A DNA stretch of 64,000 bases from Microbacterium sp. SL75 (lineage in GTDB: Bacteria > Actinomycetota > Actinomycetes > Actinomycetales > Microbacteriaceae): NCBI RefSeq assembly GCF_026625865.1, contig NZ_CP113067.1, forward strand, positions 558,001 to 622,000. Direction: 5' to 3'. The position numbers and the translations under genes were made by a program. This document shows, one piece after another, positions 5,030-53,794 of this stretch (positions are counted from its first letter, which is position 1; each line of letters opens with the position of its first letter). Under the pieces are notes generated by a model. The model was not told the DNA's origin. It saw only the letters and a list, made by a program, of their open reading frames with translations, and ran no database searches.

Positions 5030-5917
5030 ATGTTCGACCTGCGCCGTCTGCGCCTCTTGCACGAGCTGTCGGTCCGCGGCACCCTCGCGGCCGTCGCCGA
5101 CGCCCTCTCGTACAGCCCGTCGACCATCTCGCAGCAGCTCGCCCTGCTCGAGAAAGAGGCCGGGGTGCCGCTGCTCGAACCGGACGGACGGCGCGTCCGT
5201 CTGACCGCCCAAGGGGCCGCTCTCGCGGCGCACGCCGCGCGCATGCTGGCCGCCGATGAAGCGGCCCGCGCCGAACTGGAACGCATGCGGCCGTCGCTGG
5301 CGCCCGTGCGGGTGGCCGTCATGCAGTCCGCCGCGCACGGCCTACTCCCCCGAGCCCTCGACGCCCTGGCCGGGAGCGAGCCGAACCTGCGCATCGAGGT
5401 CGCGGAGCTCGCCCCCGAGGAGGGACTGTTCGAGGTGGCCGCGCGCGGCTTCGACCTCGTCGTGGCCGAGCAGTACCCGGGTCACACGCGCGAGCATCGC
5501 GAGGGGCTCGAGCGCAGCCTACTGGGGCGGGATGCCATCCGTCTGGCCGTCTCGAGCGACGATCCGGCGCAGAGCCTGGAGGACCTGCGCGAGCGCGCCT
5601 GGGTCATGGAGCCGGTGGGCACCGCCGCCCGTCAGTGGGCGACGCAGCAGTGCCGCGCCGCCGGGTTCGAGCCCGACGTGCGCTTCGAGATGGCCGACCT
5701 CACCGCGCACGCCCGGCTCGTGGCATCCGGTCATGCCGTCGGCATGATCCCCGATCTCGTCTTCGCGGGCGAGACGCCTCCCGTGCGACTCGTGGGCCTG
5801 CCCGGGCAGCCGCGACGCGAGGTGTTCACGGCCGTCCGCCGCGGAACGGCCGACCGCCCCGGCGTACGCGCGGTGCGCGAAGCACTGCAGGTGGCGTACG
5901 ACCGGGGCGGCCGATAG
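5030..5917 (+). CDS. LysR-family transcriptional regulator, likely regulator of putA
   Basis: The 295-residue protein has an N-terminal winged helix-turn-helix (RRLRLLHELSVRGTLAAVAD, then SYSPSTISQQLALLEKEAGV), a linker helix, and a periplasmic-binding-like effector domain from about residue 85. It is divergent from putA with a 99-bp shared spacer, the classic arrangement of a LysR activator and its target, so proline or a catabolite is the likely inducer (inference). The start ATG has AAGGG 6 nt upstream. A 10-bp stem hairpin follows the stop codon. Confidence 0.9.
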   Translation: MFDLRRLRLLHELSVRGTLAAVADALSYSPSTISQQLALLEKEAGVPLLEPDGRRVRLTAQGAALAAHAARMLAADEAARAELERMRPSLAPVRVAVMQSAAHGLLPRALDALAGSEPNLRIEVAELAPEEGLFEVAARGFDLVVAEQYPGHTREHREGLERSLLGRDAIRLAVSSDDPAQSLEDLRERAWVMEPVGTAARQWATQQCRAAGFEPDVRFEMADLTAHARLVASGHAVGMIPDLVFAGETPPVRLVGLPGQPRREVFTAVRRGTADRPGVRAVREALQVAYDRGGR

Positions 5918-5959: not shown

Positions 5960-7162
5960 TTACTTCGTGAGCGCGATCTCGTTCGGCGTGTGATCGAGGG
6001 TGACGCTCTTCACGACCGCGCCGGTGGTGAGATCGACCGCGTGCACGGCGTTCTTCGCGGGCTCGGTCACGTAGGCGATGTCACCCGAGACCTTGATCGC
6101 GGGGTGGGCGTCCTGCCACTCGACGGGCCCCTCCCACGCGTCGATCACGGGGAAGGCGTCGGTGAACGCCCCCTTCTCGAGGTCGAGCACGTGGATCGCA
6201 CCGTCGGAGGCCAGGACGTATCCCAGATCCTGCGGACCGCGCGCCAGGTCGCGGAAGGTGTACTCGGCCCCTGCGGGCATGTCGATGACGGTCTGCGTCT
6301 TGGCGGCCGTGTCGACGACGGAGACGCGGTGCAGCAGGTACCCCTCGGCGTCGCGGTCGTCCTTATAGTCGCCGAGCACGAGCGGGCTGGTCTCGCTCAC
6401 GAACATGTTGCCCGAGCGTCCGTAGGGCTGGTCGGGGGCCTCGATCTTGGTGATCTGCCCCTCGTCGAGCACGAGGGCGCCGTTGTCGCACCCGAAGACG
6501 ACGACCTCGTCCTTGGCGGTGCCTTCACCGTGCACGCCCGGGCAGGCCGCGTTCTCGGCGATGGTCGCACCCGAGGAATCCTTCACGACGATGCCCGTGC
6601 GACCGTTGGCGTTGCCCACGGTGGTCACGAACGAGCCGTCCTCGAGCACGATCGACACCCCGTGGTGCGCCTCGACGCCCGGAACCGTCTCGACCTCGGG
6701 AAGGGACTCGGTGGATGCCAGCAGCGCATCGGTGTCGAAGATCGTCGAGTCGCTCGTGCCGTCGGCGTAGAGCACCGTCTTTCCTCCGTGCGTCACCACG
6801 TGACCGGGCTTCGACGCCGGGAAGACGAGGTCGGTGAGCTCGGGCTCGGCGGCCGAGGTGCCGGCATCCAGAACCTGGAAACCCTCGCTCATGGTCACCA
6901 TGATGTGCCGGCCGTCGCCGGCGGAGTTCAGGCGGGTGAACTCCTCCGACGGGAAGTCGCCGACGGTCTCGAGGGTCTGACCGTCGAGCACCAGGATGCC
7001 GCCGGGGTACGACAACGCCACACGCGTGGCCGCCTCGGCTGCGACGGTCGAATCCGGGGACGCGGACCCGGGGGCGGTGCCGCCGGCGCAGGCCGACAGG
7101 GTGACGGTGGCGCCGATCGCGAGGGCGACCAGGCCCGCGCGGGGCAGGGAGAAGCTGCGCAT
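5960..7162 (-). CDS. aztD: zinc metallochaperone AztD-type beta-propeller lipoprotein
   Basis: This 400-residue exported lipoprotein starts with a signal peptide ending in the lipobox LSAC (residues 22-25). The rest consists of repeated short beta-strand blades with D-G and G-x-V-x-V-L-D motifs, as in the AztD zinc chaperone known to pass zinc to the AztC binding protein in Paracoccus (family knowledge). Histidine clusters PGHVVTHGGK, VEAHHGV and WQDAHPAIKV are candidate zinc ligands. A CPGVHGEG motif about 17 residues before GCDN gives a conserved cysteine pair. It is the last gene of the aztB-paralog-aztC-aztD set, 31 bp after aztC, with a GAAAGAGA ribosome site. Confidence 0.85.
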   Translation of the reverse strand: MRSFSLPRAGLVALAIGATVTLSACAGGTAPGSASPDSTVAAEAATRVALSYPGGILVLDGQTLETVGDFPSEEFTRLNSAGDGRHIMVTMSEGFQVLDAGTSAAEPELTDLVFPASKPGHVVTHGGKTVLYADGTSDSTIFDTDALLASTESLPEVETVPGVEAHHGVSIVLEDGSFVTTVGNANGRTGIVVKDSSGATIAENAACPGVHGEGTAKDEVVVFGCDNGALVLDEGQITKIEAPDQPYGRSGNMFVSETSPLVLGDYKDDRDAEGYLLHRVSVVDTAAKTQTVIDMPAGAEYTFRDLARGPQDLGYVLASDGAIHVLDLEKGAFTDAFPVIDAWEGPVEWQDAHPAIKVSGDIAYVTEPAKNAVHAVDLTTGAVVKSVTLDHTPNEIALTK

Positions 7163-7193: not shown

Positions 7194-8093
7194 TCAGGGC
7201 GAGAGCCCGGTGGCGATGCGCTCCGTGTTGACGCGCATCATGGTCAGGTAGTCGGGGGCGTCGCCCGAGGCGTCGGTGAGCGACTCGGTGAACAGCTCAG
7301 TCACCTCGACGTGGCGGTCGGCCTCCTCGGCGAGTGCGCGCACGAGCCGGTCGGGAGACGAGGACTCGGCGAAGATGGTCGGCACCTTCGCTTCATCGAT
7401 CGCCGCGACGAGGTCGGCGAGATCGCTCGTGCTCGGGGCGGCGAGGGTGGTCCCGCCGGGGATGACGGCCCCGATCAGGCGGAAGTCGAAGCGATCGGCG
7501 AGGTAGCCGAACACGTGGTGGTTGGTGACGAGGGCACGACGCTCGGCCGGGATCGCGGAGAAAGCCGCGGTCATGTCCGCGTCCAGCGTCTCGAGCTGCG
7601 CGCGGTAGCCGGCGGAGCGCTCGGTGACGGCGGCCCCGCCGAGGCTCTCGAGCGCGGGAGTGAGCCGGTCCACCACGGCGATCATCTGCGCGGGGTCGGT
7701 CCAGAAGTGCGGGTCGTCGGCCCCGTCTGCGTCGGCGGAGGTGTACGGCAGCACACGGACGGCGTCGCCCGCGACGATGGTGCGCACCCCGTCGGCGGAC
7801 GCGGCGTCGAGGTGCTGTTGCAGCCCCTCCTCGAGACCGAGTCCGTTGGCGACCAGCAGGTCGGCGGAACGCATGCGCGCGGCCTCGGCGGCGGAGATCT
7901 CGAACGAATGCGGGTCGGCGCCCGGGCGCATGAGGGTCAGGACCTCGACGTCGTCGCCCGCCAGCTTCGACACGACGTCGCCGAGGATGTTCGTGGTCAC
8001 CACGACCAGAGGTCGATCGGATGCCGCGGAACCGGCGCATCCGGTGAGGCACAGGAGAGCAGCCGCGGCGAGGGCGGCGAGGGTGCGGCGCAT
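7194..8093 (-). CDS. aztC: zinc ABC transporter substrate-binding lipoprotein AztC
   Basis: A 299-residue cluster A-I (ZnuA/TroA-like) metal-binding protein. The signal peptide ends at the lipobox LTGC, Cys19. Candidate ligands are His62 (ADPHSFE), His129 (DDPHFW), His192/193 (TNHHVFGY) and an acidic residue in IFAESSSPD (Glu243 or Asp248). The long histidine-rich loop of ZnuA is absent, as expected for AztC proteins that work with the AztD chaperone. The start ATG follows the TGA of the upstream gene by 1 nt, implying translational coupling. An extended frame to 8219 overlaps that gene and is rejected. Confidence 0.92.
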   Translation of the reverse strand: MRRTLAALAAAALLCLTGCAGSAASDRPLVVVTTNILGDVVSKLAGDDVEVLTLMRPGADPHSFEISAAEAARMRSADLLVANGLGLEEGLQQHLDAASADGVRTIVAGDAVRVLPYTSADADGADDPHFWTDPAQMIAVVDRLTPALESLGGAAVTERSAGYRAQLETLDADMTAAFSAIPAERRALVTNHHVFGYLADRFDFRLIGAVIPGGTTLAAPSTSDLADLVAAIDEAKVPTIFAESSSPDRLVRALAEEADRHVEVTELFTESLTDASGDAPDYLTMMRVNTERIATGLSP

Positions 8094-8094
8094 G

Positions 8095-9309
8095 TCAGCG
8101 TCCCGTCTCTGCGAAGAAGAGCGGCGTGCGCTCGGGGGCGAACTCGCGCGCCACCCGCGCATCGTCGGCGAAGTCGAGCTCCCACATGCGGTTCTCGGCC
8201 GGCCCGTTGAGGTACGCACGCTGCTGGTCGGCGATCAGGGTCACGGGCAGTCCCGCGGCGAGGCTCTCCGAGACCAGAGGGGCGGATGCCGCGCGCACCG
8301 CGCCGGTGTCACCGTCGAGCACGAGCACCCGACCGCCCGCAGTCAGGGCGAGGACGTTCGCGTTCTTGTCGTCGACCGCCGTGACCTGCACGAGCGGCTC
8401 GGGGGCGGGAAGCAGCGTCCACGCGCGCTCACGGGTGTCGAGGATCCAGATTCCGGCGTCGCCCGCGAGAGCGGCGACGCTCGGTCGACCCTCCCGGTTG
8501 TGGAAGCCCGTGGCGCGGGGCGCGGTGGCCCCGGACGGATACGGAACGACCTCGGCGACCGGCTGCTCGCCGTCGACGCTCACGAGCACGGCGCCGTCCC
8601 GGCAGCCGATCACCGCTCCGACGCGTGTCGTGATGGTGCCCGCGGGTTCGGCGCACGGGGTCGTCACCCCGATCGCGGTTCCGTCTGCCGCGTGCAGCGA
8701 TACCTCGCCCGCGGAGGCGATGGCCGCGAACGACCCGGCGGGGACGACGAGACCTGCGCCCGGCTCCGTGGTGACGCGGAACTTCTCGGCTACTTCGCCC
8801 TTCGACAGCGCCTCGGTGTCGAGCAGGACCGCCTCGCCGGAGTCGGGGAAGAACACCCCCGTGCCGCCCGTGGTCGACGAGTTGGAGGTCGCCACCGTGG
8901 CCACGCCATCGCCCGCGACCTCGCCGATCACCCGTGCGGGTGCCCGGTAGTAGTGGAAGTGGTCGACGTGATCCCACGTCCACACTCCGCTGTCGACGAT
9001 CGAGACGCCGTCGGCAGCGGCAGAGAAGAGGTAGCGACCGTCGGAATGCACCGCCGCGGGCGCGCGGACGGTTCCGAGGTCGGCCGTCGACTCGTCGAGG
9101 AGGTCGAGGTGCGAGACCCGACCGTCGGCGTCGATCGAGGTGAGCCCGAGCGCGGGCTCGGCCAGCTCTGCGGCGCCGTCGATCTGGCCGTGAGCGTCGC
9201 TCTCGGCAGTCGCTGTCGGGGCGGACGGCGCGGACGGCGCGGCACAGCCCGCCAGGGCCAGGAGCAGGAGCGCGCCGAGGGGCGCGAGAGATCGAGTGGG
9301 ATGAAGCAT
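8095..9309 (-). CDS. second AztD-like beta-propeller lipoprotein, probable zinc chaperone paralog
   Basis: The 404-residue protein has a signal peptide and lipobox LAGC (Cys22) and the same blade pattern as the AztD gene downstream. Matching blocks include SDGRYLF versus GDGRHIM, LLDTEALS versus IFDTDALL, and TTPCAEPAG then GCRDGAVLV versus AACPGVHGEG then GCDNGALVL. It carries a histidine-rich segment WDHVDHFHYYR near residue 110 that AztD lacks, while the HH of AztD (VEAHHGV) is replaced by GAG. It lies between aztB and aztC, with a 31-bp gap to aztB. Likely role: a second periplasmic zinc-handling subunit (inference). Confidence 0.75.
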   Translation of the reverse strand: MLHPTRSLAPLGALLLLALAGCAAPSAPSAPTATAESDAHGQIDGAAELAEPALGLTSIDADGRVSHLDLLDESTADLGTVRAPAAVHSDGRYLFSAAADGVSIVDSGVWTWDHVDHFHYYRAPARVIGEVAGDGVATVATSNSSTTGGTGVFFPDSGEAVLLDTEALSKGEVAEKFRVTTEPGAGLVVPAGSFAAIASAGEVSLHAADGTAIGVTTPCAEPAGTITTRVGAVIGCRDGAVLVSVDGEQPVAEVVPYPSGATAPRATGFHNREGRPSVAALAGDAGIWILDTRERAWTLLPAPEPLVQVTAVDDKNANVLALTAGGRVLVLDGDTGAVRAASAPLVSESLAAGLPVTLIADQQRAYLNGPAENRMWELDFADDARVAREFAPERTPLFFAETGR

Positions 9310-9340: not shown

Positions 9341-10195
9341 TCAGGCGGGTACGGCGATCGTCGTGGGAAAGCGACGACGGGCCTGGTCCGTGGCGAGTCG
9401 CAGCAGCCACGAGACGCCGGCGGCGGCGATCGCGGTGGCGGCGATCGTCGCTCCGGCGGCCGTCGCGGCGTGCCACGAAACGAGGAGCCCGACCGCGACG
9501 GCGGCCGCGCCGATACCGGCCGCGAGCACCATGGTCGAGGGGATGCGTTCGGTCCACTGCCTCGCCGCCACGGCGGGAGCGACGAGCAGCCCCACCACCA
9601 GCAGCGAGCCGACGGCCTGGTACGAAGCCACCACGGCGAGTGTCACCAGACCCACCAGTACCGTCTGCGCCAGACGCGGGCCGAGTCCGAGCACCCGCGC
9701 GACGCGCTCGTCGATCGCGAGGGCGACGAGCGAGCGGTGCGTCAGGGTCGCGGCAGCGATCCCGACGACGACCGCGATGGCCAGGACGACGAGATCGGCG
9801 CTCGTGATGGCGAGGATGTCGCCGAACAGGATGGCCGTGGCATCGGTCGCGAAGCTTCCCGCGTGCGAGATCACGATCACGCCGAGTGCGAGCATGCCGA
9901 CGAACAACAGGCCGATGCTCGTGTCGTACGAGAGCTTCGCACGCCGCTGCACGGCACCGATGCCGAGGCTCATCACCACGGCGCTGGCGGCCGCCCCGAT
10001 GAGCACGGGCACGCCGAGCACGGTGGCCAGGGCCACACCGGGGAGCATGCCGTGCGCGAGCGCCTCGCCGAGGAACGCCATGCCCCGGACGATCACCCAG
10101 GTGCCGGCCACCGCGCAGAGCACCGCGACGAGCACGCCGCCCAGGAGGGCACGCTGCACGAACTCGAGCGAGAAGGGATCGGTGAGCCAGGACAC
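9341..10195 (-). CDS. aztB: zinc ABC transporter permease AztB
   Basis: This 284-residue ABC-3 type (ZnuB/AztB) membrane permease has about eight hydrophobic segments and the family signatures WVIVRGMAFLGEALAHGMLPG near the N-terminus and AVGSLLVVGLLVAPAVAARQ in the second half. The GTG start at 10195 (VSWLTDPFSLEF) has no Shine-Dalgarno; a TACGGT hexamer at 10204-10209 lies 8 nt upstream, so a leaderless mRNA is likely. It is the first gene of the four-gene minus-strand zinc operon and divergent from aztA. The Zur-like box covers its -35 region. Longer starts inside the aztA reading region are rejected. Confidence 0.92.
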   Translation of the reverse strand: MSWLTDPFSLEFVQRALLGGVLVAVLCAVAGTWVIVRGMAFLGEALAHGMLPGVALATVLGVPVLIGAAASAVVMSLGIGAVQRRAKLSYDTSIGLLFVGMLALGVIVISHAGSFATDATAILFGDILAITSADLVVLAIAVVVGIAAATLTHRSLVALAIDERVARVLGLGPRLAQTVLVGLVTLAVVASYQAVGSLLVVGLLVAPAVAARQWTERIPSTMVLAAGIGAAAVAVGLLVSWHAATAAGATIAATAIAAAGVSWLLRLATDQARRRFPTTIAVPA

Positions 10196-10250
10196 GGTGT
10201 TCGACCGTAGCGTTAAGTGAGAACGGTTATCAAACTCGTATGATGGAGAT
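10196..10250. promoter_or_regulatory. divergent aztB/aztA promoters with Zur-like box at 10218-10232
   Basis: The 15-mer TGAGAACGGTTATCA at 10218-10232 is a 7-1-7 inverted repeat with one mismatch and fits the general actinobacterial Zur pattern TGA-N-AA...TT-N-TCA. For aztB, a minus-strand -35 TTGATA (10229-10234) and -10 TACGGT (10204-10209) are 19 nt apart, so the box overlaps the -35. For aztA, the -10 TATGAT (10239-10244) lies just past the box. A bound repressor would block both. The same arms recur at 53740-53754. Confidence 0.75.
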
Positions 10251-10901
10251 ATGACGACTCCCGCCCTGCGTGCCCGCGGTCTGCGCGTCGAGTTCCCCGG
10301 GACGGTTGCCCTCGACGACGTCGACCTCGACCTCCCCCGCGCGGCCCTCACCGTGATCGTCGGGCCCAACGGTGCGGGCAAGTCGACGCTGCTCGAAGTT
10401 CTCGCGGGTGCCCGCATACCGGCATCCGGGGCTATCGAGTTCGGCGATCAGTCACGCGCCTTCGTCCCCCAGCGAGCAGCCGTGGGAGAACACCTCCCCC
10501 TCACCGTTCGCGATGTCGTGACCGTGGGGGCGTGGGGTCGCATCGGCCCCCTCCGCCGCCTGACGCGCGAGGATCGGAAAGTGGTCGACCTCTCGATGCG
10601 GCGACTCGACATCGCGCACCTGGGTCGGCATCCGTTCTCATCCCTGTCCGGAGGACAGCGTCAGCGCGCCCTGTTGGCACAAGGCCTCGCCCGACAGGCC
10701 GAGATCCTGCTGCTCGACGAACCGACCACCGGGCTCGACACGGCGAGCGCGGAGCTCAACCGCGCGGCGATCGAGGAAGAGATCCGCCGCGGCGCGACGG
10801 CAGTGTGCGTCAGCCACGACGAACGGCTGATCGCGGAGGCGGACCAGGTGATCCACCTCGAGGCCGGTCGCCTCAGACCCGCGTACGAACCCGCTCCGTG
10901 A
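10251..10901 (+). CDS. aztA: zinc ABC transporter ATP-binding protein AztA
   Basis: This 216-residue nucleotide-binding subunit has all canonical motifs: Walker A GPNGAGKST, Q-loop FVPQR, signature LSGGQRQR, Walker B ILLLDEP and H-loop VSHDE. It powers zinc import with AztB and AztC and is transcribed divergently from them across a shared 55-bp Zur-like promoter region. The ATG at 10251 lies 6 nt past a TATGAT hexamer, so the mRNA is probably leaderless or nearly so, although GGAG sits in the gap. Its 3' end overlaps the convergent MarR gene by 29 bp. Confidence 0.93.
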   Translation: MTTPALRARGLRVEFPGTVALDDVDLDLPRAALTVIVGPNGAGKSTLLEVLAGARIPASGAIEFGDQSRAFVPQRAAVGEHLPLTVRDVVTVGAWGRIGPLRRLTREDRKVVDLSMRRLDIAHLGRHPFSSLSGGQRQRALLAQGLARQAEILLLDEPTTGLDTASAELNRAAIEEEIRRGATAVCVSHDERLIAEADQVIHLEAGRLRPAYEPAP

Positions 10902-49921: not shown

Positions 49922-51916
49922 TCAGCGGCGTCCCTGGCGACGGCGTCGGGTGAAGACGATCAGGACCGCGCCACCGACGGCCGCGAACGCCCCCGCGACG
50001 ATCAGCCCGGGAACGGCAGAGACATCCGCACCGGTCTTCGCCAACGCTCCCGACGTCGATGCCGCGACACCGCCGGGGACGCGCACGTCGTCCTTACCGA
50101 TCGGGCCGGGCGTCAATTGCTCGGGGGACGAGCCGTCCGAGGGCCGAGGCTGCGGTGCCGGCTGGCTCCCGGATCCCGGATCCGACGAGCTCTGCGGAGC
50201 GTCGGCCGCGACGACGCCGACGCGCACGAGCGCGCCGAGGCCGCGACGGTCATCCACTTGGAGCGCCACAGCGGTCTGCGCCTGCCCGTCGACCGCCTGC
50301 GCGTTCAGCGTGACGACCGCCGTCCGCCCCGCCACGGCGAAGCGGGTCCCCGCCGGCACCGCCCCCGCAGGAATCGTCTGCCCGGCGACCGTACCGCCAC
50401 CGGTGGTCAGCGTCGTACCGGTCGACGTGACCTGCAGGCGCACGTCCCGCAGCGACACCTCCATCGCCGTCCCGGGGTACAGGACGAGGTCGTCCACCCC
50501 CACCGAAGCCGCCCCGGCGGAGCTGGCTGTCTCGATCCCCCGCACGCTGATCTGGCCGGCGAAACCGTCGGTGACCGTCTGCGCATCGGCGTCGGCCGAT
50601 GCGGCGTGCGCGGCCTTCGTCTCCCCGGGTGCGGACACGAAAGCAGGTGCGATGGCCGAAGGGCCCACGGCGTCGACGGCGAAGGCGTAACGCGGAGGGA
50701 GCGGTGGCGCGCTGGTCGTCGACGGCTCGGGAGTGGGCGTCGGCGCGGCCGCCGCGGGAGACCACCGCACGACGCCGAGGCTGACCGCGGGGTAGGCGCC
50801 CGTGAGGTCCTCGTAGCGCAGCGCGGTGATCAGTACGCTGCCGTCACTCTGCGTGACGCGCTCGTTCAGGTGCACCCGCACGCGCGGCGAGCCCGTGGCA
50901 TCCAGGCCCGTGTAGAGGTCGGTTCCCGTGTTGATCCAGATCCCGTTGACGAAGACGGCGGATCCGGTGTCGGCGAAGCTCACGCGCGACGAGCCGTCGC
51001 CGTCCACCGAAAGACGCAGGCCGTAGACGCGTAGGGCCGACCACATGTATTCGCCGACGGAAGATGTGTCCGGCACCTGGCGGAACGATCCCACCGACAC
51101 CGCGCTCGACCCGTCGGCCGCGTGAGCGACGGAGACGTCTGCAGCGGAGGATGCCGGGGCCGTCCCGCTCACCGCCTGCGCGGCGACCGAGCCTTCGGCC
51201 TCCAGGCGGGGAGCTCCCGGGATCAGCGCGGCCCCGTTCGGCGCCGTGACGGTGACGCCCGAGACGAGGGCGGGCGACGCAGACGCCGCGGGAGCACACG
51301 CCACCACGCCGAGACGCACGCGCCAGATCTCCGACCACCCCGCTTCGGCCTCGATCCGCAGGGCCGTCACCTGGGCTCGACCGCGGTCGATGGTGCGTTC
51401 GGCGACGACCAGCCGCGTCGACCCCCACGTGGCGGACGTCGGCAACGCGACCGTGTATCCCGCCGACAGCTTGGACGGATTCAAGACGTCCTTGCCGTCG
51501 ACCGTCAGCGTGTCGAAGGTCACCGACGTGCTCCCGTCGGTCCCGCAGCTGGCACGCAGGCCGGTGAAGGCGACAGGGACGCGGTCGCGCAGCTGGAACA
51601 GGCCGCTGTCGATTCTCGTCTGCGCTCCGTCGGAGGCCGCTCGGGCGGTCAACCCCGTCGCGCGGGTGGTGTTGAGCTTCAGCGCGTCGCCGGTCTCCGA
51701 GAGGGAGTTGTCGGCGGTCGCCCCGCTGGTCCATTCGCTGAGGGGCGCGGGCTGCTGGAGCGCACCGCCGTCGGCATCGAGGATCTGGATGCCGGAGGCC
51801 GAGGTCGAGGGGATCGACACCGCTCCGTTCGCGGGGACGGCGCCCGCGACGGCGGCTGCCGTGATGAGCGCACCGACGATGGCGGCGAGAAACCGGGTAC
51901 GGGGTCGCGGGGTCAC
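49922..51916 (-). CDS. sortase-anchored (LAKTG) surface protein with three repeated modules
   Basis: The 664-residue protein has a signal peptide (FLAAIVGALITAAAVAGAVP), three similar modules of about 170-200 residues each ending in a strand like VRLGVVACAP, VSLGVVRWSP or VRVGVVAADA, a Pro/Ser-rich linker, and at residue 625 the sorting motif LAKTG followed by a hydrophobic helix and a RRRRQGRR tail. LAxTG is the class E sortase motif of actinobacteria. The modules resemble choice-of-anchor surface domains; their ligand is unknown. Its GTG overlaps the stop of the S53 peptidase gene (GTGA), so both are one operon under a Zur-like box. Confidence 0.82.
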   Translation of the reverse strand: MTPRPRTRFLAAIVGALITAAAVAGAVPANGAVSIPSTSASGIQILDADGGALQQPAPLSEWTSGATADNSLSETGDALKLNTTRATGLTARAASDGAQTRIDSGLFQLRDRVPVAFTGLRASCGTDGSTSVTFDTLTVDGKDVLNPSKLSAGYTVALPTSATWGSTRLVVAERTIDRGRAQVTALRIEAEAGWSEIWRVRLGVVACAPAASASPALVSGVTVTAPNGAALIPGAPRLEAEGSVAAQAVSGTAPASSAADVSVAHAADGSSAVSVGSFRQVPDTSSVGEYMWSALRVYGLRLSVDGDGSSRVSFADTGSAVFVNGIWINTGTDLYTGLDATGSPRVRVHLNERVTQSDGSVLITALRYEDLTGAYPAVSLGVVRWSPAAAAPTPTPEPSTTSAPPLPPRYAFAVDAVGPSAIAPAFVSAPGETKAAHAASADADAQTVTDGFAGQISVRGIETASSAGAASVGVDDLVLYPGTAMEVSLRDVRLQVTSTGTTLTTGGGTVAGQTIPAGAVPAGTRFAVAGRTAVVTLNAQAVDGQAQTAVALQVDDRRGLGALVRVGVVAADAPQSSSDPGSGSQPAPQPRPSDGSSPEQLTPGPIGKDDVRVPGGVAASTSGALAKTGADVSAVPGLIVAGAFAAVGGAVLIVFTRRRRQGRR

Positions 51917-53685
51917 TGGTCTGCTCCGAATCGATCGAGGAAGTCGGCGCCGTTCGGAATGCCGACACCGGTGACCGGGTCCCACCCGGCCGCGGTCTGC
52001 AGGGACTGGGGCCGGGTGTCCCACAGGTAGAGGGTCTCGAGCCACAGCTGACCGGTGCTCTCGTCGCGGCGGTACCACGTGCCGGCTGACGCGGGAACGA
52101 CGTCGCGAATCGCGCTCGACCCGGCCAGGGCGTACAGGAAGGGCGCGGCAAGACCGACCTCCACCCCGGTGCGCGCCTTGGCGATCGCGACCATGCTCGC
52201 GACCATCGGCGTTGCCAGGCTCGTGCCGCCGTGGGCCTCGTACGACAGTGCCCCGTCACGCGGCACCGCGACGGTGAAGCCCGTGTTGGGATCGGCGAGC
52301 GAGGCGACGTCGGGGACGAGTCGCCCCGATCCCGCGTGCGCGATGCGCTCGCTCTGCCAACTGGGGCGCGGGTAGAAGGCCGACTCCCCGCCTCCGGCGC
52401 CGTAGAGGAAGCCCGGCGGGATGATGCCACCGTTCTGGGCGAAGCGGGTCTGCACCTCCCACCCGGATTCGACGGCGATGCGATTGTCGGCGTCGAGGCC
52501 GATGCTGGCCCCGCCCACCGCGGTGACGTACGGACTGGAGGCCGGCGTCGCCACGTCGGTCTCGTCGTGGTGGTCGCCGGCGAGGGAGTAGTCGCCGTCG
52601 TTGCCGCTCGAGGCGAAGACCGACACACCGCGGGACGCGGCTTCGACCAGCACGCGGTTCAGCAGGGTGCGGTCGGCATCGGTGTCGAGCTCTTCGGGCC
52701 CGCCGAACGAGAGCGAGATCACACTCGGGGTGACGGGGGCTTCGACGGCGTCGAGGACGCGCAGATAGAGCGTCGCGGCGAGGCAGTCGTCGGCCCCCCA
52801 GTAGACGATGTCGGCGTCAGGGGCCATCGCGCGCACCGCCTGCACGTCAAGATGCTGCTCGACGGTCCACGCCGAGGGACCTCCGCAGCGGGTGACGTCC
52901 GGGTTCGCGGAAGCGTGGTGGGTGTACTGCCCCTCCCGGAGAGCGGGCAGACCCTCCCGCGCGAAGTACGCGTCCGTGTTCGCGGCGACCGTGTCATCGT
53001 CGAAGACTCCGACGATCGCCACGGTCGCTCCCGCGCCGCGCGCATCCGCCGGGAGCTGGTGGATCGCGCGCAGTTGCGTGGGCCCGTACCCGCACAGCGC
53101 GTTCGAGCGATGCTCGACCTGGACCGACGACGGCCACGACGACGAGAGCGTCTGCCCCCAGTACGCGGCGCAATCGTCGCTGCGCACGGGCGCGGCGTCG
53201 GTGCTGGGGCTCATCGCGTCGGTATCGACGAGACCGGCGACGGACTCGATGGCACCGGCCTCGCGAGGAACGGACAGATCGCGGGTGGGAGCGAACGCCG
53301 CGCGACCGTCCACGGTCGTCTCACCGAAGGAGGTGTCGAAGGCCGAGGCGAACGCCGACGCCGGCCCGGTCACCGAGAGCGCGCGGATGCTCTCACGGTC
53401 TCGGACGATCTCGATTCCGGCCGTTTCGAGCCACGAGCGCGCCGCACTCGCCTCCGCGGCCGTCGCCGAGTCGGTGAGCAGCACGGTGGCCGTCAGGCGC
53501 GCGTCGAGCGACGCCTCGGGGGCGGCGGAGGCCCATCCCGGAGCGGTCGACACGAGGATTCGTCGACCGTCGGGGGAATCGGTGGATGCCGCCGGCGGGG
53601 CGCTGCAGGCGGTGGATGCGACCGCTGCTGAGAGCAGCAGAACGGCCAGGGAAGTCGTCGGTCGACGACGGAGGCGTGGGGGCAT
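51913..53685 (-). CDS. secreted S53 (sedolisin/kumamolisin-type) peptidase
   Basis: The 590-residue enzyme has a signal peptide ending near Cys27 (STAC, only a weak lipobox), a pro-kumamolisin activation domain (about 60-165) and the S53 catalytic domain. The catalytic Glu276/Asp280 are in WTVEQHLDVQ, the oxyanion Asp363 is in ASSGNDGD, and the nucleophile Ser489 is in HGGTSLATP. The C-terminal GWDPVTGVGIPN (Asp569) is the calcium site of the family. S53 enzymes are usually acid endopeptidases. It is first in a two-gene operon with the LAKTG protein; a Zur-like box overlaps its promoter. The zinc link is inference. Confidence 0.9.
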   Translation of the reverse strand: MPPRLRRRPTTSLAVLLLSAAVASTACSAPPAASTDSPDGRRILVSTAPGWASAAPEASLDARLTATVLLTDSATAAEASAARSWLETAGIEIVRDRESIRALSVTGPASAFASAFDTSFGETTVDGRAAFAPTRDLSVPREAGAIESVAGLVDTDAMSPSTDAAPVRSDDCAAYWGQTLSSSWPSSVQVEHRSNALCGYGPTQLRAIHQLPADARGAGATVAIVGVFDDDTVAANTDAYFAREGLPALREGQYTHHASANPDVTRCGGPSAWTVEQHLDVQAVRAMAPDADIVYWGADDCLAATLYLRVLDAVEAPVTPSVISLSFGGPEELDTDADRTLLNRVLVEAASRGVSVFASSGNDGDYSLAGDHHDETDVATPASSPYVTAVGGASIGLDADNRIAVESGWEVQTRFAQNGGIIPPGFLYGAGGGESAFYPRPSWQSERIAHAGSGRLVPDVASLADPNTGFTVAVPRDGALSYEAHGGTSLATPMVASMVAIAKARTGVEVGLAAPFLYALAGSSAIRDVVPASAGTWYRRDESTGQLWLETLYLWDTRPQSLQTAAGWDPVTGVGIPNGADFLDRFGADQ

Positions 53686-53739
53686 GGACAGCTTTCTCGA
53701 TCAGTGGCTCGGGTGAACCGATCGAGAGCTTATCGATAT

Positions 53740-53754
53740 TGAGAACCGTTATCA
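53740..53754. promoter_or_regulatory. Zur-like box upstream of the S53 peptidase operon
   Basis: TGAGAACCGTTATCA has the same 7-nt arms as the box at 10218-10232 and differs only at the central base. On the minus strand it covers the gap between a -35-like TTGTGA and a -10-like GATAAG about 45 nt before the ATG at 53685, so binding would block transcription. The regulator gene itself is not in the window. Confidence 0.72.
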
Positions 53755-53771
53755 CAAACGGGCAAAAGAAA

Positions 53772-53785
53772 GCCCCCGTCGGGGC
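53772..53785 (-). terminator. terminator of the glutaredoxin/Dabb operon
   Basis: On the minus strand GCCCC-GACG-GGGGC forms a 5-bp stem followed by CTTTCTTTT, a short intrinsic terminator 10 bp after the Dabb stop. Confidence 0.6.
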
Positions 53786-53794
53786 CGAGCCCGC

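Follow-up and report, generated by a model that had tools for sequence, protein, structure and literature searches.

A two-gene operon of Microbacterium sp. SL75, which codes for an exported serine peptidase of the S53 type and a wall-anchored partner protein, is very probably under the control of the zinc regulator Zur. The features on which this assignment rests can all be read from the DNA: a Zur-type box, its apparent position inside the promoter of the pair, the predicted organization of the two genes as an operon, the conservation of the box before orthologous genes, and the presence of a Zur-like gene elsewhere in the genome. As a zinc-type box stands ahead of the two genes, their products are probably made under zinc shortage. 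For what the two proteins then do there are more tentative proposals, among which the release of zinc bound to extracellular proteins is the one favored here.

Zur-type boxes in the window and the genome

The operon lies in a stretch of 64,000 nucleotides (the window), part of a single-contig genome of 3,436,786 bp. Its box, TGAGAACCGTTATCA (minus strand TGATAACGGTTCTCA), occupies positions 53740..53754, ahead of the genes for the S53 peptidase and its partner, which carries the anchor motif LAKTG (the S53/LAKTG operon). A second box, TGAGAACGGTTATCA, occupies positions 10218..10232, between the divergent genes aztA and aztB of the azt zinc importer. The two have identical arms of 7 nt, TGAGAAC and GTTATCA, and differ in the central base alone, in agreement with the coordinates and sequences that a preliminary description of this DNA had given for two such 15-mers. 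The azt locus is assigned by NCBIfam models that all score above their cut-offs: aztA, for the ATPase of the zinc ABC transporter (10251..10901, plus strand; NF040873); aztB, for the permease (9341..10195, minus strand; NF040871; its GTG start, at 10195, taken from the sequence); aztC, for the zinc substrate-binding protein (ORF limits 7194..8219, minus strand, the start likely lying further in; NF040870); and aztD, for a zinc metallochaperone (5960..7162, minus strand; NF038015). The same locus carries a second AztD-like gene (window positions 8095-9309), whose product at 30.2 bits falls far below the AztD cut-off of 400.

With up to two mismatches allowed, the pattern TGANAACNNTTNTCA yields five strand-hits in the 64-kb window, against a shuffle mean of 2.07, and the azt and S53-operon boxes are its only exact matches there. 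Because 8 of 100 shuffles reach five or more strand-hits at this tolerance, the window by itself is weak evidence; the same holds for the earlier argument that a chance resemblance across 43 kb would be unlikely, and the claim is instead carried by genome-wide and cross-species counts. Across the genome, exact TGANAACNNTTNTCA is found at four places, namely the azt locus, the znu-zur operon, the gene for a paralogue of ribosomal protein bL36, and the S53/LAKTG operon, and the first three of these are classical zinc genes. A genome scan had been proposed on the reasoning that many copies of the box outside promoters would speak against a link to zinc, and no such multitude was seen. At one mismatch or fewer the scan gives 19 strand-hits, where the reversed-pattern control gives 0 on the forward and 1 on the reverse strand; the one-mismatch places number seven beyond the four exact ones. 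A looser pattern, TGANAANNNTTNTCA, has five exact places in the same genome, and its reversed control has none. The znu box stands 19 nt ahead of a znuA-like gene in an operon that also contains a Fur-family gene, and the bL36 paralogue behind the exact box is free of Cys.

Genes marked by the box in related genomes

Six genomes, the present one included, which the tool groups as one genus, contain 30 exact places of TGANAANNNTTNTCA, and the reversed control has none in any of the six. The genes at these places, mostly named by reading their translations, are znu-type at 7, azt at 4, bL36/CobW-like at 6, the S53 operon at 5, Mg-chelatase-like at 3, and without assignment at 5. The S53 box of one genome (G026) falls outside the five because its last base is mismatched. 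The Cys-free bL36 paralogue is found behind the same box in the six genomes. Eight genomes reached through named loci hold 19 box places, for part of which genes were assigned; the control gives 0 in seven of these genomes and 1 per strand in the eighth.

Several of the places are of interest in their own right. Three of the six genomes have a Zur-type box where a gene for a Mg-chelatase-like AAA+ protein, so named from its translation, begins (G000:C1:2366658-2366672, locus L016, in the present genome), and this gene is a possible additional Zur target. In locus L013 one box, at 5884, is common to the bL36 paralogue and a divergent gene for a CobW-like GTPase; the CobW-like frame is broken in the present genome near a short repeated stretch, and relatives have long open frames. 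Three further observations again rest on genes named from translation. Clavibacter has a Zur-type box between divergent NRPS-like and acyl-adenylate-type genes (L071, L072), which suggests a zinc-controlled metallophore; another Clavibacter locus (L082) has one ahead of an AztD-like gene; and a Curtobacterium locus (L085) has a box ahead of a gene for a FecB-like binding protein.

The likely regulator

For the product of the Fur-family gene in the znu operon, the nearest solved proteins are 3mwm and 7vo0, which we take to be structures of the Zur protein of S. coelicolor, and 2o03 of M. tuberculosis (Zur/FurB). The same protein scores 52.8 bits against the NCBIfam Zur model, below the cut-off of 167, and iron-Fur models of NCBIfam score slightly above the Zur model, also below cut-off. 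A second Fur-family gene in the genome adjoins a catalase-peroxidase (katG) gene named from its translation. The set of box-marked genes and the znu-linked Fur-family gene, taken together, make a Zur operator the best reading of the box. That it serves a different Fur-family regulator, one for iron or peroxide, is very improbable. The existence of the second Fur-family gene, the slight lead of the iron-Fur models, and the possible iron genes behind some boxes elsewhere (FecB-like in Curtobacterium, NRPS-like in Clavibacter) would fit such a regulator, but znu, azt, bL36, and CobW-like genes dominate the box set, solved Zur proteins are the best matches of the znu-linked gene product, and the katG neighbor likewise disfavors the second Fur-family protein in this role.

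Promoter architecture and conservation of the box

The distance from the box to the ATG of the S53 gene is 54 nt, and the box is followed after 7 nt by a -10-like element, TAAGCT (53727..53732, minus strand). Of 25 orthologous promoters, 24 show a TANNNT element past the box at an offset of 2, 7, or 8 nt, and with a Clavibacter locus (L053) added it is present within 13 nt of the box in 25 of 26; the chance of finding TANNNT within 13 positions is ~0.005, estimated from downstream or upstream sequence alike. With a likely -10 element shortly after it, the box would fall within the promoter itself, a position that fits repression. On the far side of the box from the S53 gene is a terminator-like hairpin (53771..53786, minus strand) of the preceding Dabb-domain gene. 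The preliminary description had both boxes overlapping promoters, a view that the -10-like elements bear out for the S53 operons. A scan for the sigma-70 consensus gave a single 9-of-12 match at aztA (10217-10244) and called none at the S53 promoter.

The box is present within 300 bp of the S53 start, as estimated from BLAST matches, in 24 of 27 orthologous operons, where 0.03 would be expected from Markov shuffles, and before 0 of 17 distant S53 genes, where 0.04 would be expected. With the box-bearing Clavibacter locus L053 the count becomes 25 of 28. These are not counts of independent events, since orthologous operons share ancestry. The 27 leave aside a genome of the same species (G244, box present), two loci that have no upstream sequence (L041 and L046), and nine named copies already counted; the 17 leave aside L032, a contig with part of the gene only, which shows no box.

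Three samples contribute to these numbers. The genus sample of 247 genomes contains 13 with an S53 match at E<=1e-30, divided between 7 orthologues (58-100% identity), the present and same-species genomes among them, and 6 distant proteins (32-37%). The box stands upstream of all 7 orthologues; that of G026 deviates at one base and lies ~200 bp away from the start. The gene upstream of the operon is a different one in G026, and in another genome, G234, it is still the Dabb gene, with more spacer sequence in between. Among named genomes, a scan with the partner protein returned 16 loci, with the S53 gene directly upstream in 15 and the remaining locus beginning inside the partner gene. The box precedes the S53 gene in 12 of the 14 named loci that cover the region, as one match per ~14-kb locus; the other two, a Naasia locus and that of Bifidobacterium psychraerophilum, have half-sites only in place of the full box. 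Among the 398 genomes of the family sample are 17 further orthologues, 15 of them with the box; it was not found in the Naasia locus already mentioned and in a locus with a long G/C run at the box site. The three operons of the 27 that lack a full box are accordingly those of Naasia, B. psychraerophilum, and the G/C-run locus.

The box before this S53 subfamily is kept in several genera of the Microbacteriaceae, and a single genome from outside that family keeps it as well. A functionless chance match, which the shuffles of the window alone would have accommodated, is a practically negligible explanation against the genome-wide count, 24 of 27 orthologues with a box, none of the distant S53 genes with one, and a fixed promoter spacing. 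The zinc-starvation link made in the preliminary description gains support from both sides, in that the box marks znu-zur, azt, and the bL36 paralogue and is conserved before the S53 subfamily.

The S53-type peptidase

The first gene of the operon (51913..53685, minus strand) codes for a sedolisin/kumamolisin-like S53 serine peptidase with a pro-domain, catalytic residues E276, D280, and S489, and Asn362. The pro-kumamolisin activation domain (PF09286) is recognized at 28 bits, over a cut-off of 23.5, and at E<=0.001 it is recognized in 46 of the 50 proteins aligned. The alignment was drawn from the best 120 of 1777 proteins found and comprises the window's protein with 35 of the 94 clade proteins listed and 14 of the 26 others listed. 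Glu, Asp, and Ser of the catalytic set (the Ser within GTS) are invariant across its 50 rows. At the position of Asn362, which we take to be that of the S53 oxyanion residue, Asn is found in 36 of 36 clade rows and Asp in 14 of 14 other S53 rows. As the oxyanion-hole Asp is replaced, the protein is labeled here an S53-type variant and not a typical member.

Kumamolisin-As (PDB 1sio, 1zvj) resembles the window's peptidase in its pro-domain, in the catalytic Glu, Asp, and Ser, and in sequence at E ~1e-31. The sedolisins differ at the oxyanion position, where the Asp of 1sio is replaced by Asn in the window's protease, as it also is in 1zvj and 1zvk, presumably engineered variants. The Asn may fit the protease to less acid surroundings than those of other S53 enzymes. 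Near the N-terminus, several orthologues and the window's protein have, by eye, a lipobox-like (S/L)TAC, so the precursor may be membrane-tethered; other clade members are without it.

The wall-anchored partner

The second gene (49922..51916, minus strand) codes for a protein with a signal peptide, three related domains of ~165 aa, a Pro-rich stretch, the motif LAKTG, a transmembrane helix, and a basic tail RRRR, the last three read by eye. The internal repeats are clearest between domains 1 and 2 (E 3.3e-24, probability 99.6), followed by domains 1 and 3 (E 3.7e-7, probability 92.9); domains 2 and 3 are weakly related (E 2.9e-4, probability only 40.7). The partner of one relative has additional copies of the middle domain. 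The Pfam sortase anchor scores below cut-off in the window's protein, three of six orthologues show it at E<=1, and the NCBIfam LAVTG model gives 18.6 bits against a cut-off of 27. The genome has two sortase genes (PF04203) over cut-off. From the LPxTG-like motif, the helix, the basic tail, and the genomic sortases, all of which are present, the partner is predicted to be a sortase-anchored surface protein.

No known fold could be assigned to it: the search of PDB sequences gave no match at E<=1, and Pfam offered nothing beyond the weak anchor and chance-level matches. Among 46 aligned partner proteins (the window's and 45 of its 72 matches), no His column exceeds 54%, and a conserved His motif such as the HxD/HxH of ZnuE/F/G is therefore not seen. 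Without conserved His the partner has little resemblance to a zinc-binding protein, and a zinc-binding surface protein was rejected on this ground.

Coupling and distribution of the pair

The stop codon of the S53 gene overlaps the partner's start in a GTGA (51913..51916, minus strand), an arrangement indicative of translational coupling, and an overlap of GTGA or ATGA was found in 6 of 6 orthologues examined. Among the 398 family genomes, the S53 subfamily (at least 55% identity, the present genome included) occurs in 18, all 18 of which have the partner; the partner occurs in 19, 18 of which have the S53 gene, and it is found in 6 of the 85 genera sampled. The operon is uncommon, with 7 carriers among the 247 genomes of the genus sample (the present one and those of its species included). 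Its range takes in several genera of the Microbacteriaceae, Bifidobacterium, and one genome of a further family. That last genome came from the class sample of 394, in which S53 matches at E<=1e-90 were confined to it and the present genome; its S53 protein (49%) has the box upstream, and its partner (34% identity, E 7e-76) is without an LPxTG signal.

The single partner-bearing family genome without an S53 match at E<=1e-20 has a partner-like protein of 35% identity with an LAVTG motif, encoded in an ORF of 1151 aa (L130, 4838-8293). Near this gene are genes, named from translation, for an ABC importer of the zinc/manganese type whose binding protein is His-rich and for copper-type proteins, and a search of the 15-kb stretch around it found no box.

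One copy of the operon adjoins a relaxase-like gene, and two Bifidobacterium species have copies, observations that together suggest horizontal transfer of the operon. An anti-phage system was considered and rejected, as a PADLOC search gave no match at E<=0.001.

What the pair may do

The following sequence of events can be proposed. With enough zinc, Zur would occupy the promoter and the two-gene operon would be silent; as zinc falls, Zur would leave, the exported S53-type serine protease would be made, and the wall-anchored partner would be made with it through translational coupling. The protease, which would have no need of catalytic zinc, would cut extracellular proteins near the cell, the partner holding or guiding it, and the zinc that these proteins had bound could then reach the Azt and Znu importers, which would be produced alongside. 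Of the possible roles, it is this release of zinc from proteins that we favor, with some reserve, because the pair would be controlled together with the importers and because both products appear to be exported and cell-linked. It is possible, if more doubtful, that the arrangement amounts to a dedicated zinc-foraging proteolysis, in which an S53-type protease under Zur control, with Asn as its oxyanion residue, acts beside a three-domain wall partner that holds either protease or substrate, and Azt and Znu catch the zinc.

Two other roles need to be weighed against zinc release. The protease might act locally, to mature, shed, or regulate the partner or the wall, in which case the partner, as an adhesin or docking protein, would be the working part. 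The co-occurrence of the two genes and their stop-start overlap accord with such a role, as does the presence in Corynebacterium diphtheriae of Zur-controlled sortase-anchored proteins whose function is described as unknown in two reports (PMC6711530; PMC12445094). The one genome in 19 that keeps a partner-like protein without S53 argues the other way, as the partner can evidently do without the protease there, and local processing seems somewhat unlikely overall. Unlikely too, and slightly more so, is a zinc-sparing role, by which a serine protease without any zinc requirement would replace zinc metalloproteases much as zinc-free ribosomal paralogues replace their counterparts. The bL36 paralogue behind the same box in six genomes and the conserved catalytic Ser, Glu, and Asp of the S53 protein are in keeping with sparing, and there is a precedent in ShyB of Vibrio cholerae, a Zur-controlled and EDTA-resistant endopeptidase (PMC6381278); yet sparing leaves unexplained both the pairing with a surface protein in 18 of 18 genomes and the rarity of the operon, carried by 7 of 247.

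Relation to known zinc responses

The known responses to zinc starvation are made up largely of importers, metallophores, and zinc-free paralogues, together with some corynebacterial wall proteins. The regulon outlined here resembles the actinobacterial Zur regulons described in the main text of one study (C. glutamicum and others; PMC2823685), where a Zur box likewise precedes znu genes, the gene for a COG0523 GTPase, and those for paralogues of ribosomal proteins. Leifsonia xyli, another member of the host's family, is among the species for which a regulon was predicted there. The present regulon differs in that the word 'peptidase' appears nowhere in that main text, where the only protease is the membrane protease subunit cg3138, raised in arrays of a C. 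glutamicum zur mutant. Neither 'peptidase' nor 'cell wall' occurs in the available text of a review of Zur (PMC6103462).

The closest likeness on the side of the partner is to CmrA, CmrA2, and ZnuG of C. diphtheriae, which the reports present as sortase-anchored proteins under Zur or zinc control and of unclear function (PMC6711530, PMC12445094). By the same descriptions ZnuE/F/G have an HxD/HxH motif and lie beside an ABC importer, whereas the present partner, compared with CmrA and ZnuG by description, lacks conserved His residues and comes paired with a protease. On the side of the protease the likeness is to ShyB, as a Zur-controlled peptidase that works when zinc is scarce; ShyB is described as a cell-wall endopeptidase of a Gram-negative species (PMC6381278), in contrast to the S53-type protein peptidase and wall-anchored partner found here. 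Among the matches listed in a search of open-licence literature, no paper was recognizable as dealing with the S53-partner operon or a Zur-controlled S53 peptidase.

If the assignment is true, a conserved Zur-controlled protease and its partner would add extracellular proteolysis to the zinc-starvation responses of Actinobacteria, and two little-known protein families would gain a clear condition under which to be studied. The natural S53 clade with a subtilisin-type oxyanion residue could moreover serve to investigate why acid adaptation is found among S53 enzymes.
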